Assembly (NCBI GenBank): GCA_025774865.1
Contig: JALGZO010000500.1
Coordinates: 1-6,854, forward strand
DNA from: a bacterium
Lineage (GTDB): Bacteria > ARS69
DNA length: 6,854 nucleotides
Direction: 5' to 3'
Below the pieces are notes generated by a model. The model did not search any database and was not told where the DNA came from. It was given only the letters and a program-made list of their open reading frames with translations. Positions 748 to 6,854 of this stretch are shown in pieces. The translations under genes were made by a program, and so were the position numbers. Within the stretch, counting starts at the first letter, position 1, and every line of letters begins with the position of its first letter.

Positions 748-1206
748 CTAGATCGCCGCGAGAAACGAGCTCACCGCGCTCAACGGTACCGCCGCGCGCA
801 CGGCCTCGTCCGGTGTATCCACGTCGATCACGATCCGCCCGTTCCGCTTCTCGATGGTCACGACCTCGCAGGACGTACGAACGTCCACGAGCACGCCGTC
901 GGGGCAGCGGGAAAGCTCTCGCGCCGCCGCCTGGACGATCTCGACCGCGTTACCCACATCGCAGCGGATCTCCTGGCCAGCCTCCTCGATCACGACGGAC
1001 GGCATGAGATGCACCGCGGCCGGTACCAGGATCGCCGGGACCTTGCCCGAGATGTGGCAGCCGTCCGGGCCTTTCTCGAGCACGGCGAACTCGATCGATC
1101 CGGCCCGGTAGATGTTGGACCCGACGAGCCAGACGGGAACGAGCAGCAGGATCGGGACTCCGAACAGGATCGCGAACAATGCGCGGGATTTCGGTTTCGG
1201 TTCCAT
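748..1206 (-). CDS. Small membrane-anchored protein of unknown function, paralogue of the upstream secreted protein
   Basis: The product is 152 residues and I do not recognise a named family. A basic N-terminus (MEPKPKSR) is followed by one hydrophobic helix at about residues 10-30 (uncleaved anchor), so the rest probably faces the periplasm. The soluble part alternates short beta strands and one helix and has four cysteines (50, 82, 101, 113). Residues 103-150 (DGVLVDV, VVTIEK, IVIDVD, AVPLSAV) align in order with residues 91-136 of the protein encoded immediately upstream (DGEYVTV, SVRIAK, LTVHFED, RVPVSVL), so the two look like diverged paralogues. The ATG at 1204-1206 is preceded by GGGAG at suitable spacing and lies 18 nt after the upstream stop, so the two genes are probably co-transcribed. 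Its stop (748-750) directly abuts the stop of the convergent dehydrogenase gene. The existence of the gene is well supported; its function is unknown. Confidence 0.72.
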   Translation of the reverse strand: MEPKPKSRALFAILFGVPILLLVPVWLVGSNIYRAGSIEFAVLEKGPDGCHISGKVPAILVPAAVHLMPSVVIEEAGQEIRCDVGNAVEIVQAAARELSRCPDGVLVDVRTSCEVVTIEKRNGRIVIDVDTPDEAVRAAVPLSAVSSFLAAI

Positions 1207-1224: not shown

Positions 1225-1770
1225 TCAGTCGGACTCGTTCTTGCGGTCGATCCAGATGCGTACGGTCGTGTCGGTCTCCTCGACCGTCACCAGAGTCTGA
1301 TCGTCAGCCTCCCCGAGCGCCCGCACGGCCGCCAGCAGGTCGAGCTCGTCGTCCTGGCCGGAGACCAGCGCATCGAGAACAGAGACCGGAACACGTATTT
1401 CGCCCTTCTCGCCGTGGTCCTCGAAGTGGACGGTCAGGTAATTGCCTTCCTTCGCGATGCGAACGCTCTCATTGAGATCGTCGACCGTGACGTACTCGCC
1501 GTCCTTCGCGTCCCGTATCGAGGCGAGGATCTTCACGATGTCTTCGTGACTGAGGTCCTGCTGGTCGATCCAGACCTTGCCGTCGCGGAGCTCCTTCGTC
1601 TCGATGAGGGGAAGCACCGTCTCGACGATCGACAGCGGTAGGTTCACCCGGACTCGCTCGTCGTTTCCGCCCCGGCCGTCGACGGCGACGTGTAGCCATT
1701 GGTCGCGGTCGACCCCCTGAGCGGGCCCGGCGAGGAGCACGAGGGCGAGGCAGGCGATCGTGGCTTTCAT
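1225..1770 (-). CDS. Secreted protein of unknown function with two tandem repeat units
   Basis: The product is 181 residues from the ATG at 1768-1770, chosen because GGAGGA sits about 6 nt upstream and the protein then begins with a clear Sec signal peptide (MKATIACLALVLLAGPAQG, likely cleavage after AQG at residue 19). A longer open frame to 1983 has no such signal and runs into the divergent gene. The mature part is acidic and contains two copies of one unit. Copy A is about residues 25-104: LHVAVDG, RVRVNLPLSIVE, then DIVKILASIRD and YVTVDDLNESVRI. Copy B is about residues 111-172: LTVHFED, EIRVPVSVLD, then DLLAAVRALGE and LVTVEETDTTVRI. Each copy reads as strand, strand, helix, strand, strand. 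The following gene encodes a membrane-anchored relative. No enzyme motif or metal site is visible. A role in the envelope, perhaps binding or sensing, is inference only. Confidence 0.75.
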   Translation of the reverse strand: MKATIACLALVLLAGPAQGVDRDQWLHVAVDGRGGNDERVRVNLPLSIVETVLPLIETKELRDGKVWIDQQDLSHEDIVKILASIRDAKDGEYVTVDDLNESVRIAKEGNYLTVHFEDHGEKGEIRVPVSVLDALVSGQDDELDLLAAVRALGEADDQTLVTVEETDTTVRIWIDRKNESD

Positions 1771-1891: not shown

Positions 1892-1918
1892 GATGAAAAA
1901 GGCCAGGAGAGGACCAAA

Positions 1919-3349
1919 ATGAGTGATCTGCACCCCCGGCTGGAGCGCGCGCTCCGCAATGTCGGGGCGTCCGGCGGTTCCACGTCGCTGGAGCCCCGGG
2001 CGCTGCGCGACCTGCTCCAGGCCGTCAGCCGAGCCTTCTACGACGCCGACTCCGAGCGCTCCGCCCGCGAGCGGCGGGACGAGGAGCTCCAGGCGGCGAC
2101 GCGGGAGCTCGAGGCGGCGCGCGAGGAACGGCGAACGAGTGGGGGATGGCTCGCGGGGCTGGGCCCGGGGCTGCGGTCCCCGTTGACCGAGCTCGCCGAG
2201 CACGTCGACCTGCTCCTCGAGGGCGAGCTCGCGCCCCACTCTCGAGACCGAGTCGAGGGCACCCGCGAGTCTCTCGGTTCGGTCCTGGCGGCGCTGGACG
2301 ACATCCTCGACTTCTCGGAAATGGAGGCAGGGACGCTCGAGATCGACCCGATCCCCTTCGATCTGAGGCCGGCGGTCGAAGAGGTGGCGAGCGCGCTCGC
2401 GCCGCTCGCCGAGGAAAGGGGTCTCGAGCTCGTCGTTCGGTACGACCCCGGTGCGCCGCGCCACGTCGTCGGTGATCCCGGGCGCATCCGGCAGGCGTTG
2501 TTCAACCTCCTCCGCCATGCCGTGACGGCGACTCGCGAGGGATGGGTTCTCATCGACGTGGCCGGGGTTTCCTGGACCGAGGAAGAGGTCGTCATGCGAT
2601 TCGCCGTGGAAGACTCCGGCCAGGGGATCGCGCACCGAGAGCTGCGGCGCCTTTACGAGACGTCCGGCCGGACCGGCGGGGTGCTGCCCGACCTCGGTGG
2701 CGCGGCGCTCGGGCTCGCGGTCGCGGGTCGGCTGGTCGGCCGGATGGGAGGCTCCACCGGGACCGAGCACGACGCGGGGCTGACGTCATCGCTTTGGTTC
2801 GAACTCCCGCTTCCGTTGGATCGCCAAGCCCCCCCCGAGTTGCAGGCCGAGGATCTCACCGACGTCCGCATCATGGTCGTCGATGCGAGCGAGGCGAGGC
2901 GGGTCGCTCTCGAGGATCAGCTGGGTCACTGGGAAATGAGGTGCGAGAGCTTCGTATCCGGGGCCGAAGCGCTGCGGGAGCTCCGCCGCGCGAAGGACGA
3001 GGCGGACCCGTTCCGCATCGTGATCCTCAGCACGCGGATCGAGGGCATGGACGCGGAGCTGTTCGGCGATCTCGTCAAGAGTGACGCGGCCCTCAAGGAC
3101 GTCGACCTGGTGCTGTTGACGGCGCTCGGGGAGAAGGGCGCCGGGAAGCGGCTGCGAGAGATCGGGTTCTCCGCCTATCTCGTGAAACCGATCCAGGAGG
3201 CGCCGCTCAAGGAGACGCTCCAGTGCGTCTGGGGGGCCCGCAAGCATGGCGTCGGCCAGGCGCTCGTCACCCGTCACACTCTCTCGGAGAGTGGCATCCT
3301 CGAGCTCACGCCCTCGGCTCGGGAGCCCGCGTCCTCGAGGCGTCGCTGA
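1919..3349 (+). CDS. Degenerate hybrid histidine kinase (HisKA-like, HATPase-like, receiver) lacking phospho-acceptor residues
   Basis: The product is 476 residues from the ATG at 1919, chosen over the GTG at 1877 because AGGAGAGG lies 6 nt upstream and the GTG is inside a hairpin loop. There is no signal peptide or membrane helix, so it is cytosolic. Order of parts: charged coiled coil (about 40-76), HisKA-like dimerisation domain (about 78-139), HATPase-like domain (about 150-300), receiver (about 315-438) and a short tail. Architecture and spacing match hybrid kinases (ILDFSEMEAG, RQALFNLL, DSGQGI at 232-237, RLVGRMGG). Key residues are lost: the H-box reads LGPGLRSPL, so Pro83 replaces the phospho-accepting His. 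His200 replaces the magnesium-binding N-box Asn, and the second G-box reads GGAALGL. In the receiver the acidic pair is DA (322-323) and Ser371 replaces the phospho-accepting Asp, while Thr401 and Lys423 remain. It is probably a non-catalytic scaffold or pseudokinase. The open frame and intact fold argue against simple decay. Confidence 0.85.
   Translation: MSDLHPRLERALRNVGASGGSTSLEPRALRDLLQAVSRAFYDADSERSARERRDEELQAATRELEAAREERRTSGGWLAGLGPGLRSPLTELAEHVDLLLEGELAPHSRDRVEGTRESLGSVLAALDDILDFSEMEAGTLEIDPIPFDLRPAVEEVASALAPLAEERGLELVVRYDPGAPRHVVGDPGRIRQALFNLLRHAVTATREGWVLIDVAGVSWTEEEVVMRFAVEDSGQGIAHRELRRLYETSGRTGGVLPDLGGAALGLAVAGRLVGRMGGSTGTEHDAGLTSSLWFELPLPLDRQAPPELQAEDLTDVRIMVVDASEARRVALEDQLGHWEMRCESFVSGAEALRELRRAKDEADPFRIVILSTRIEGMDAELFGDLVKSDAALKDVDLVLLTALGEKGAGKRLREIGFSAYLVKPIQEAPLKETLQCVWGARKHGVGQALVTRHTLSESGILELTPSAREPASSRRR
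2829..2836 (+). repeat. C8 homopolymer in the linker between kinase and receiver domains
   Basis: Eight consecutive C residues encode part of the Ala-Pro-Pro linker that joins the HATPase-like and receiver domains. Slippage here would detach the receiver from the rest of the protein. In DNA this GC-rich the run may be chance. Confidence 0.5.
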
Positions 3350-4067
3350 CCCCGTCCACGGGGCCGGACACGATCTCGTGAACCCGGTCGCGTAACGCCT
3401 TCTCGTCCTCGATCGTCATTCCCTCCATCTCGATCGTGTCGTGCAGGTGCACGACGATCTTCGCGGGGCGAAGCATCCAGCTCGTCTTCCGCTTGAGCTC
3501 GAACGAACCCACGATCGACATCGGCACGATCGGCACTCCGAACTCGCGCGCCATGCGAAACACGCCGGGCCGGAACGGACCCACCCGTCCGTCCCGCGTG
3601 CGGGTGCCCTCGGGGAAGACGATGAGACTGATCTCGTCGTCCAGCGCCTCCCGGCATCGCTCCTTGAGGAGGCGCATGGTCGCGGACGATCGCGTGACCG
3701 GCACCGGGACATTCCCGAAACGCTCCATCAACCAGCCGTAGACGGGCACCCGGAAATGCGACTCCAGCTCGAGGCCGCGCACGAACTGTGGGATCGCCGA
3801 GTAGATCACCATCGGATCGAAGATGTTGACGTGGTTGCATACGAAGAAGCTCGTGCGCTCGGGATCGAACCCCGGAGCGCGGCGCACTTCGAGACGGGCA
3901 CCGGTGCAGCGCACGACGTTGCGGATGAAGAAACGCAGGACACGATCGTGCCGGCGAGGGTTGAAAAGAGTAGCGAGGAAGACCAGGAGCGTGGTCCCGG
4001 GGAAGAAGTGCAGGACGCTCAACGTCCAGAAGAAGAGTGAGCGAGCTCCGACGAAGAACCCCGTCAC
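3306..4067 (-). CDS. plsC: PlsC-type 1-acyl-sn-glycerol-3-phosphate (lysophospholipid) acyltransferase
   Basis: The product is 253 residues. The family transfers an acyl chain from acyl-ACP or acyl-CoA to the sn-2 position of a lysophospholipid at the inner membrane. A hydrophobic N-terminal segment (about residues 10-35) would anchor it. The catalytic NHx4D motif is NHVNIFD (78-84), the acceptor-phosphate motif is FPEGTR (151-156), and VPIVPMSI (178-185) is the usual last conserved block. Length fits the family. The start is the GTG at 4065-4067, whose GTGA overlaps the TGA of the upstream ligase. A longer open frame to 4217 would add an Arg-rich stretch inside the ligase gene that matches nothing in PlsC. 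No strong ribosome site precedes the GTG, so translation probably depends on coupling to the ligase. The Arg/Pro-rich C-terminus overlaps the convergent kinase-like gene by 44 bp. The acceptor could be something other than lysophosphatidate, given the ACP and ligase partners. Confidence 0.9.
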
Positions 4068-5854
4068 GAGAGGTCGATCACCCCACGCTCGACCTCGATC
4101 GTCTCGTCGCCGCCGGCCGGCACCATCACCCGGTCGCCGAACTTCCGAGCGATCGCGGCGGCGAGCTCTTCGCGCTTGATCTTCATCGACGCCGTCCGCG
4201 GAAAGTCCCGATCCCACACGATGAGCCCCTTCACGCGCTTGAAGTCGAGCAATCGTCGGTTGCGGCCGACGATTTCCTCGCGAAGATCGGGATAGCTACT
4301 CCAGTCGGTGGACGGCCCTTCGGGGCTCGTCCGGATGACGAGCAGAAGGCGCTCGTCGCGGCCCGCGCGCTCGGGCCAGAGGGTGTGCGCCGCAAAGACG
4401 CAGAACTCAGTCACGTTCGGGAGGTCGGCGAATGCGCCCTCGACGTCCTCCGGGTACACGTTTTTGCCGCCCTCCGTGACGATCATGTTCTTCCGGCGGC
4501 CCAGGATTCGGAGCGCGCCATCGTCGAAGCGGCCGAGATCGCCCGTGTGGAGCCACCCGTCGACGATCGTCTCGGCCGTGAGCTCCGGATCGTCGAGATA
4601 GCCGCGCATGAGCGTGGGCCCGCGCGCGACGATCTCTCCCACGCCTTCCTCGTTCGCTCCGTCGATCCGCAGCTCGACGCCGGGTAGCGGGGGTCCCACC
4701 GTGTCGGGACGGGGGGGGGCGAGGCGGTCGAGGGTGAGCGCCGTTCCCGCTTCGGTCAATCCGTAGCCGTTCGCCACGGGGATGCCGAGGTCGTGGAAGA
4801 AGCGGAGCGTGTCCGGGTCGGTGTAAGCGCCGCCGACGAACAGCGCCTCCAGTCGCCCTCCGAACGCGGCGTGCACGGCCGGAAGGAGCTTCCGGGCGAT
4901 CCGGGGATTCGGGCGCCCGCGGGAGAGCTTTCGATTGAGCGTGATGAGGGTGTGGAGGATCGCGCGCCGGGCACCGGTCAGCTCCGCGAACCGGCTTCGG
5001 AGCCCCGTTGCGAGGTTCTTGAGGACCATCGGGACGAGCGCCATGTGGGTGATCCGGTAACGCGGGAACGCGTCCCGGACGAACTCCGGTCGCAGCGTTC
5101 GAAGATGGACCACCGTGGCACCACACAGGTACGGTCCGATGAATCCCACCATGAAGTCGATGGCGTGATTCGTGGGAAGGATGCTGAGGTAGCGGAATCC
5201 GGGACGGAGCGGATGCAGCTCGGAGAGCGAGCGAAACTGCTCCAGGTAGTTGCCGTGCGTGAGCAGGCAGCCTTTGGGGCGGCCGCCGGTGCCGGAGCTG
5301 TACACGATGCACGCGACGTCGTCGCGGGAGCGGGGGACGACGGCCGTCGCGTCGTCGGAGCCGGCCGCGTCCTCCCACCGCATGACCGTCGCGCCGCCCG
5401 CGGCGGGCAACTCGCGGTCCGCCGGGGTCTCCGTCACGAGGACGAGCTCGGCGGAGAAATCGTCGAAGCCGTCTGCGCGGCTCATCGCCTGCCACAGGTG
5501 GTGCTCGACGAGCAGGACCTTCGCGGCGCAGTGCGCGAGGAGTCGAAGGTGCTCGGAGCCCTCGAGCTTGAAGTCGAGCGGAACGAGAACCCCACCGGCG
5601 CGGAAGACCGCGAACGCCGACAGATGCCACTTCGACTGGTTCGTCATCACGATCGCGGCGCGGTCGGAGGCCTCGAAGCCGCGGCCGCGGAGGAAAGCGT
5701 CGAGGCGCCGTCCCCCGATGGAGAACTCCCCGTACGTCAGTCTCAGGTTCTCGCGATCGCGGTCCGCTTCGATGAGGCAGGTCTCGTCCGTCCAATGTCG
5801 GAGCGCGGTGTCCAGCGCCTCCCCGAGGGAGGTCACGCGATCGAGGTCGATCAT
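4064..5854 (-). CDS. AMP-forming long-chain acyl-CoA/acyl-ACP ligase
   Basis: The product is 596 residues of the ANL superfamily, which activates a carboxylate as acyl-AMP and passes it to a thiol (CoA or ACP pantetheine). Motifs in order: phosphate-binding loop [11 protein letters not shown] (185-195), GYGLTEAG (363-370), HTGD (436-439), LGRRKNMIV (451-459), [11 protein letters not shown] (462-472) and the C-terminal catalytic-lysine motif [11 protein letters not shown] (552-562), with Lys558 as the likely catalytic residue. The loop has Gly190 where Thr or Ser is usual. The overall pattern is of long-chain ligases and Aas-like acyl-ACP synthetases rather than NRPS adenylation domains. The ATG at 5852-5854 overlaps the stop of the ACP gene (ATGA), and its own TGA overlaps the GTG of the acyltransferase. 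The adjacent ACP makes it the likely partner thiol; CoA cannot be excluded. A C9 tract lies inside the gene. Confidence 0.93.
4711..4719 (-). repeat. Nine-base G:C homopolymer inside the acyl ligase gene
   Basis: The plus strand has nine consecutive G, read as C9 in the ligase coding strand (Ala-Pro-Pro-Arg near residues 379-382). The frame is intact here. A tract this long is prone to slippage, and a one-base change would remove the C-terminal third including the catalytic lysine domain. Whether it varies in nature is unknown. Confidence 0.55.
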
Positions 5855-6096
5855 CCGAGACGAGCGTGAATTCGCTCGGCCAGCGTCCGGAAGTCCGAGA
5901 CGTCCTGCATCTCGTAGTCGGGCAGCTCCACTTGAAAATGCGACTCCAGTCGGCTCAAGAGCTCCAGTGCCTTGAGGCTGTCGATGCCGAGCGTCGCGAA
6001 GAAATCATCGTCGGGCGCGAGGTCATCGCGTGAAACTCGAAAGTGGGACGCGGCGAGATCGATGATCTCGTCGAGCGTCTGTTCGGCGGTCTTCAT
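5851..6096 (-). CDS. Acyl carrier protein
   Basis: The product is 81 residues, a normal length for a free-standing ACP. The phosphopantetheine site is [11 protein letters not shown] with Ser40 as the attachment serine, preceded by [11 protein letters not shown] and followed by acidic helix III residues, as in the ACP fold. After modification by a phosphopantetheinyl transferase it would carry acyl chains as thioesters. The start is the ATG at 6094-6096, which overlaps the TGA of the hydratase gene (ATGA) and has GGAG about 10 nt upstream. A longer open frame to 6198 adds unrelated residues from inside the hydratase gene. Its stop overlaps the ligase start in another ATGA. No ketosynthase, ketoreductase or malonyl transferase is in the window, so this looks like a dedicated carrier for the ligase, hydratase and acyltransferase rather than the housekeeping AcpP. 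That assignment is inferred from context. Confidence 0.93.
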
Positions 6097-6854
6097 GCTC
6101 TGGTCTCCGGGGACGAGGGCAAGTACGGCATGGGATCGTCGCTCTCGACGAATCGTCGCAGCTCCTGCTCGACCGCCGGCTTCGTGAAGAGCTCGCAAAA
6201 CAGATCAATCTCCTCCCGAAGGCGTTCGCGCGGGATGGTCTTGAGGAAACGCTTGGCCGCGGCCCGCGTGTGCGGATCGAACTTGGCCGCCTGGCGAGCG
6301 GTCGAGCGGGCCAGCTCGATCGCCTTGCCGGAACCGGCGAGCTGGCTCACCAGCCCGACCTCCCGGGCTCGCGGGGCCCCTAGACTCCGACCGGTCAGCA
6401 GGAGATCGCGCACGACGGCGTTCCCGAGATCGCGCGACAGGCGTGGGATGCCTCCGAACCCCGGGATGAGCCCGAGCCGGAGCTCCGGGAAACAGAAGCG
6501 CGACATGCGCTCCGCGACGATCAGGTCACATGTGAGAGCCAGCTCGAAGCCGCCGCCGAAGACGACGCCGTGCACTGCGGCGATCGTCGTCAGGGAAGTG
6601 CCGTCGAGGGCGTCGAAGACACGATGGATGCTCTCGAGGAAACTTCGCACGCCGGCCAGACGTTCGGCCGGAGGCAGCTCCTGCATGCGAGAGTAGAGCT
6701 CCCGCAGATCGGCGCCCGCGGAGAAGCCGGCCCCCACCGTGCTGTGGATCAGGAGCGCCCGGGCCTCCGTCTCGAGATCGGGCAACGCATCGCCGAGTCG
6801 CTCGAGGTCCGCGAGCATGACGGTGCCGATCTCGTTCGCGGGCGCACGGTGCAG
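6093..6854 (-). CDS. Enoyl-CoA hydratase/isomerase (crotonase) family protein, 5' partial
   Basis: 253 residues are visible; the start lies beyond the right edge. Beyond the internal ATG at 6818 the frame continues to 6854 as LHRAPANEIGTV, matching the usual 'L.RPPAN' opening of crotonases, so 6818 is not the true start. The first oxyanion-hole segment is GFSAGADLRE (43-52 of the visible part), the second is HGVVFGGGFELA (94-105). Both catalytic glutamates of classical enoyl-CoA hydratase are present (Glu104 in GFEL and Glu124 in FPEL), exactly 20 residues apart as in the rat mitochondrial enzyme (Glu144/Glu164), so real hydratase or dehydratase chemistry on 2-enoyl thioesters is likely. GLIPGFGGIPRLSR and AREVGLVSQL follow as expected. 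The stop overlaps the ACP start, placing it first of the visible genes in a coupled operon. With an ACP partner the substrate may be enoyl-ACP rather than enoyl-CoA. Confidence 0.93.
   Translation of the reverse strand: MHRAPANEIGTVMLADLERLGDALPDLETEARALLIHSTVGAGFSAGADLRELYSRMQELPPAERLAGVRSFLESIHRVFDALDGTSLTTIAAVHGVVFGGGFELALTCDLIVAERMSRFCFPELRLGLIPGFGGIPRLSRDLGNAVVRDLLLTGRSLGAPRAREVGLVSQLAGSGKAIELARSTARQAAKFDPHTRAAAKRFLKTIPRERLREEIDLFCELFTKPAVEQELRRFVESDDPMPYLPSSPETRA

Follow-up and report, generated by a model that had tools for sequence, protein, structure and literature searches.

A hybrid histidine kinase with its catalytic residues replaced in both the kinase core and the receiver, and a kinase-dead counterpart at the same locus in another genus

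The locus and the layout of the protein

The window, by which we mean the whole stretch of DNA analysed here (6,854 nucleotides), is the complete contig G000:C504 of the draft genome G000, and relatives were sought in five genomes of the phylum (G000 to G004). A gene of the hybrid histidine kinase type lies in it, preceded by two small divergent genes. The features and the domains of the product are as follows.

748 to 1,206, minus strand: small152, the second divergent neighbour, 152 amino acids with an apparent N-terminal membrane helix; kept in G002, G003 and G004
1,225 to 1,770, minus strand: small181, the divergent neighbour, 181 amino acids with an apparent signal peptide; G003 and G004 also have it next to their kinase gene
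1,905 to 1,912, plus strand: AGGAGAGG, Shine-Dalgarno-like in sequence, 5' of the ATG at 1,919
1,919 to 3,349, plus strand: pseudo-histidine kinase gene, 476 codons and a stop (translation, Pfam)
1,919 to 2,143, plus strand: N-terminus, residues 1 to 75, predicted helical (Pfam, structure model)
2,144 to 2,338, plus strand: DHp (HisKA-like) helical hairpin, residues 76 to 140 (Pfam, alignment, model, core positions)
2,339 to 2,818, plus strand: CA (HATPase-like) domain, residues 141 to 300 (Pfam, alignment, model, structure match)
2,852 to 3,238, plus strand: pseudo-receiver domain, residues 312 to 440 (Pfam, model, structure match)
3,239 to 3,349, plus strand: short C-terminal tail, ending in the linker where the G004 protein runs on to a second receiver (alignment)

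In the Pfam search HATPase_c scored above its cut-off (46.4 bits, 6e-12), Response_reg exactly at it (30.2 bits, 5.4e-07) and HisKA below it (21.0 bits, 3.5e-04), and the nearest NCBIfam models were BarA and TorS. The translation bears out the frame of 476 open codons reported in a preliminary description of this DNA. That description had also remarked on the lack of any sensor domain or membrane helix; neither was found by Pfam or in the structure model, and the lack of a sensor is common to the kinase-intact relative in G004. A second receiver is absent from the translation as well.

The two small genes are conserved in four of the five genomes of the phylum and absent from G001; in both G003 and G004 their homologues flank a kinase gene, and no Pfam or NCBIfam family was found for either product. 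At its 3' end the kinase gene overlaps a convergent acyltransferase gene by 44 nt. This acyltransferase opens a row of genes on the minus strand (3,306 to 6,854), continuing with an AMP-ligase, an acyl carrier protein and an enoyl-CoA hydratase; the row is conserved in G002 and G003, and the ligase is unmatched at E 1e-100 in G001 and G004. At the other edge of the window, positions 1 to 747 of the plus strand hold the last part of a coding region; its product has both a FlgD-like Ig domain and a sorting domain of the secretion type.

It should be considered whether a gene of this kind could be chimaeric or miscalled, since the assembly is a draft of 785 contigs with 8.3% contamination. We regard such an assembly or binning artefact as highly improbable. 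G003 has small152, small181, kinase, acyltransferase, AMP-ligase and ACP in an identical order, G002 and G004 share it in part, and the many motif substitutions described below all fall within an open frame.

Catalytic residues and the same-locus relatives

Alignment to intact relatives places the following replacements at catalytic positions of the window protein.

2,165 to 2,170, plus strand: Pro83-Gly84 where the phospho-acceptor His and the catalytic Glu would stand
2,516 to 2,518, plus strand: His200 in place of the Mg-binding Asn of the N box
2,882 to 2,887, plus strand: Asp322-Ala323 in place of the receiver acidic pair
3,029 to 3,031, plus strand: Ser371 at the site of the receiver's phospho-acceptor Asp (Ser in G004, Asn in G003)

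The H box thus reads GPGLRSPL as against GHEIRTPL in the intact relatives, and the N box NLLRHAVTAT as against NLVGNAVKFT. The N-box Lys has become Thr203, and the G2 box has changed from GTGLGL to GAALGL with one Gly gone, while Asn196 and the G1 box DSGQG (232 to 236) are kept, as are Thr401 and Lys423 in the receiver. The preliminary description had named Pro83, His200, Ser371, Thr401 and Lys423 together with an Asp-Ala acidic pair, and every one of these residues was confirmed by translation and alignment, which set the acidic pair at 322-323. It was also right that the HisKA-HATPase-receiver fold is kept, as seen by Pfam and in the model, but it had overlooked the losses of Glu84, the N-box Lys, the G2 Gly and the second receiver. 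Of the phospho-acceptor His, the complete N and G boxes and the receiver Asp with its acidic pair that belong to a catalytic hybrid kinase, none is present. What is present is a DHp/CA fold stripped of its catalytic residues, that is, a pseudo-histidine kinase, followed by a pseudo-receiver, with a Response_reg match and a CheY-like fold (Z about 20) that lacks the Asp and the second acidic residue. With the residues that stand at 83 and 371, neither a His nor an Asp is available there, and phosphate chemistry by either route is excluded.

Kinase genes at this locus were seen in only three of the five genomes (G000, G003 and G004), at 30-39% identity; a scan of the genome contigs gave generic kinases only. 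The G004 kinase is intact in its motifs (GHEIRTPL, NLVGNAVKFT, GTGLGL), and yet Ser takes the place of Asp in its first receiver (VVDS, VILSS); a second receiver with its Asp follows in another frame. The one-base frame jump in G004 lies at the start of that second receiver (VDDN; L026, 8740 to 8860) and may reflect either a true frameshift or a fault of the assembly. The copy in G003, which belongs to another genus, is kinase-dead (LDGLRPSL, EELVRFAVDHT): it lacks the His, the Glu, the two N-box Asn residues and the Asp of its receiver, and the protein stops, after the first receiver, at the linker where the window protein also ends. The G003 gene overlaps its convergent acyltransferase gene by 53 nt. 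In G002 the acyltransferase stands beside small181 with about 95 bases between them (L035, 4988 to 6150) and the kinase gene is absent; since this genome has the locus without the gene, the kinase is dispensable there.

Because the kinase-intact G004 protein already carries Ser for the receiver Asp, the pseudo-receiver is older than the loss of the kinase. A pseudo-receiver between the CA domain and a true receiver is also the arrangement of ShkA, GacS/BarA and RcsC (PMC7010744). The loss at every catalytic point that the preliminary description had read as one condition was therefore not one event. Its suggestion that orthologues with intact His and Asp would indicate recent decay is answered in two halves, the kinase His of G004 being intact and its first-receiver Asp being Ser already. 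Conservation of Pro83 and Ser371 among orthologues, which it had named as support for a dedicated family, was not seen in G003, whose protein has Asp and Asn at these positions.

The number of kinase losses may be one or two, since the trees disagree on whether the dead copies are sisters. The three same-locus proteins cluster in the HK tree with a support of 98, and within it G000 and G003 are sisters at 91-98 ultrafast bootstrap; the AU test, however, rejects no alternative to this grouping, and the support drops without the motif columns. Receiver-only data favour G000 with G004, as does the tree of the small genes (support 94) and, weakly, the rpoB tree (support 62, with G003 missing). As a marker uvrA was dropped for being too fragmentary. 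That both dead proteins end in the linker speaks for a single loss.

Selection, rates and structure models

At fourfold sites the window gene differs from G004 by 0.63 and from G003 by 0.65, as compared with 0.58 in random pairings. The residue identity is nonetheless 38% to G004 and 34% to G003, where random pairings give 7.5% and 8.4%. With synonymous sites saturated and the identity so far above random, selection has shaped the protein across the whole of this divergence, a large part of its history, and some of that selection may predate the loss of the kinase. The dN/dS called for in the preliminary description was computed, and the ratios (0.59-0.92) are not usable as estimates at saturated synonymous sites; it is the excess of identity that speaks to selection. 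The open reading frame was likewise dropped as a sign of selection, stops being rare at such G+C (GC3 = 0.87).

The domains have changed at different rates. The receiver has the highest identity of all domains between the window protein and G004 (48%), and the CA identity is higher between the two dead proteins (41%) than between the window protein and G004 (36%). Measured as distance to active kinases, window minus G004, the excess is 0.20 for the DHp (95% interval 0.085-0.327), 0.117 for the CA (0.059-0.178) and 0.00 for the receiver. The kinase core has gained distance and the receiver none, and constraint has therefore loosened in the kinase core only, leaving the pseudo-receiver the slower of the two; the G003 copy is fast-evolving throughout, its receiver included. 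Hydrophobic core positions are kept in 21 of 26 cases in the DHp, 42 of 47 in the CA and 31 of 33 in the receiver, and the cores are retained in all domains of both dead proteins.

The structure prediction proposed earlier gave DHp, CA and receiver folds in both dead proteins. In the window model (mean pLDDT 76.7) the DHp forms a long hairpin, followed by a CA fold whose lid (248 to 260) is poorly defined and by a CheY-like receiver, and the G003 model (mean pLDDT 79.9) has the same elements; both are monomers built from 12-sequence alignments. The best whole-length structure match of the window model is ShkA (Z 27.3, rmsd 5.0 over 343 residues), followed by GacS and RetS, and DivL is matched as well.

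Several of these observations could be taken as signs of decay, with an inessential hybrid kinase, now inactive, slowly eroding in a frame held open by high G+C and chance. The DHp and CA are the faster-evolving parts, the gene is missing in G002, the G003 copy has eroded further, down to a shortened ATP lid, and at this GC3 an open frame alone is weak evidence. We nevertheless find decay unlikely: the protein identity at saturated synonymous sites, the retained hydrophobic cores and the unaccelerated G000 receiver all stand against it, and both dead copies have ribosome-binding sites and full frames. The fold is kept, and a kinase-dead relative sits at the same locus in a second genus; for these reasons the window protein is probably a maintained non-catalytic regulator, and to this extent the role proposed in the preliminary description is supported.

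Known systems and the probable role of the protein

Pseudo-histidine kinases and pseudo-receivers are established classes, the His being missing in 0.9% of HisKA domains and the Asp in 2.0% of receivers (PMC12632262). Among the known systems ShkA of Caulobacter (PDB 6qrj) shares the order of DHp, CA and pseudo-receiver and ranks first among the full-length matches both in sequence coverage and in structure; what sets it apart is its kinase activity, its true second receiver and the DDR motif of its linker, all of them missing from the window protein. DivL, also of Caulobacter (PDB 4q20), is a kinase fold without the phospho-acceptor His that reads a phosphorylated response regulator (PMC4211667). 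Unlike the window protein, with its Pro, no PAS and a pseudo-receiver, DivL carries a Tyr where the His would be and also has PAS domains (PMC4211667). RetS of Pseudomonas (PDB 6dk7, 7n0e) has a GacS-class kinase region and acts on another kinase, GacS, by pairing through its DHp, and has an extracellular sensor domain that the window protein lacks (PMC12148439). The ChrS pseudokinase pairs with HrrS (PMC9491836). The pseudo-receivers of the PF00072 class share the receiver fold and the absence of both the Asp and the second acidic residue (PMC12632262), whereas the kinase core to which the one in the window is attached is dead as well.

With these precedents in mind, we consider it probable that the window protein is a maintained pseudo-histidine kinase, derived from a hybrid kinase of the ShkA/GacS type and acting through its dimer stalk and pseudo-receiver. 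The ancestor would have had DHp, CA, pseudo-receiver and true receiver in that order, and its cytosolic descendant would have lost autophosphorylation and the terminal receiver and retained the fold. Most likely a dimer, and transferring no phosphate, the protein would use the pseudo-receiver for sensing or docking, and its DHp/CA stalk may bind a partner, either an intact kinase or a response regulator, and alter the activity of that partner. A phosphorylation-independent dimeric regulator of this sort would fit what is known of DivL, RetS, ChrS and the pseudo-receiver of ShkA.

Two more specific forms of this explanation can be drawn. In one, the DHp would pair with that of an intact kinase of the GacS/BarA type, for instance G000:C565, and block its autophosphorylation in the manner of RetS, which itself acts by such pairing (PMC12148439). 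Among the best matches, in sequence and in structure, are RetS, GacS and the complex of the two, and an intact tripartite kinase is encoded in the same genome; the resemblance, however, spans the whole kinase class, and no clear counterpart of C565 was seen in G003 or G004, which leaves this form doubtful. A candidate partner by its type is the intact GacS/BarA-type kinase at L037 of the same genome (1556 to 4534, minus strand), with two receivers and an apparent HPt. In the other, the dead core would be a dimeric carrier for a pseudo-receiver that binds c-di-GMP, as that of ShkA does, where Tyr338 is required for the binding (PMC7010744). Here ShkA is the top full-length match, Tyr420 aligns with its Tyr338 and is kept in all three relatives, and the genome holds four GGDEF matches. 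Yet the window protein has Lys406 and Gln426 where ShkA has Arg324 and Arg344, ordinary receivers commonly carry an aromatic residue at the position of Tyr420 (PMC12632262), the linker is without the DDR motif and G003 also differs at the c-di-GMP sites, so that we would give this form little chance. Equally speculative is the thought that the pseudo-kinase and the two small family-less proteins make up a new envelope-signalling module in which a signal is passed without phosphate transfer.

What is new is a protein dead at both ends, for which the order of the losses can be read from its relatives. The pseudo-kinase and the pseudo-receiver, so far known singly, are here found in one protein, the receiver having been lost first and then the kinase, and the pseudo-receiver is left as its slowest-changing part. 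If a partner is found, it would become testable how a pseudo-receiver works with no active kinase attached to it.
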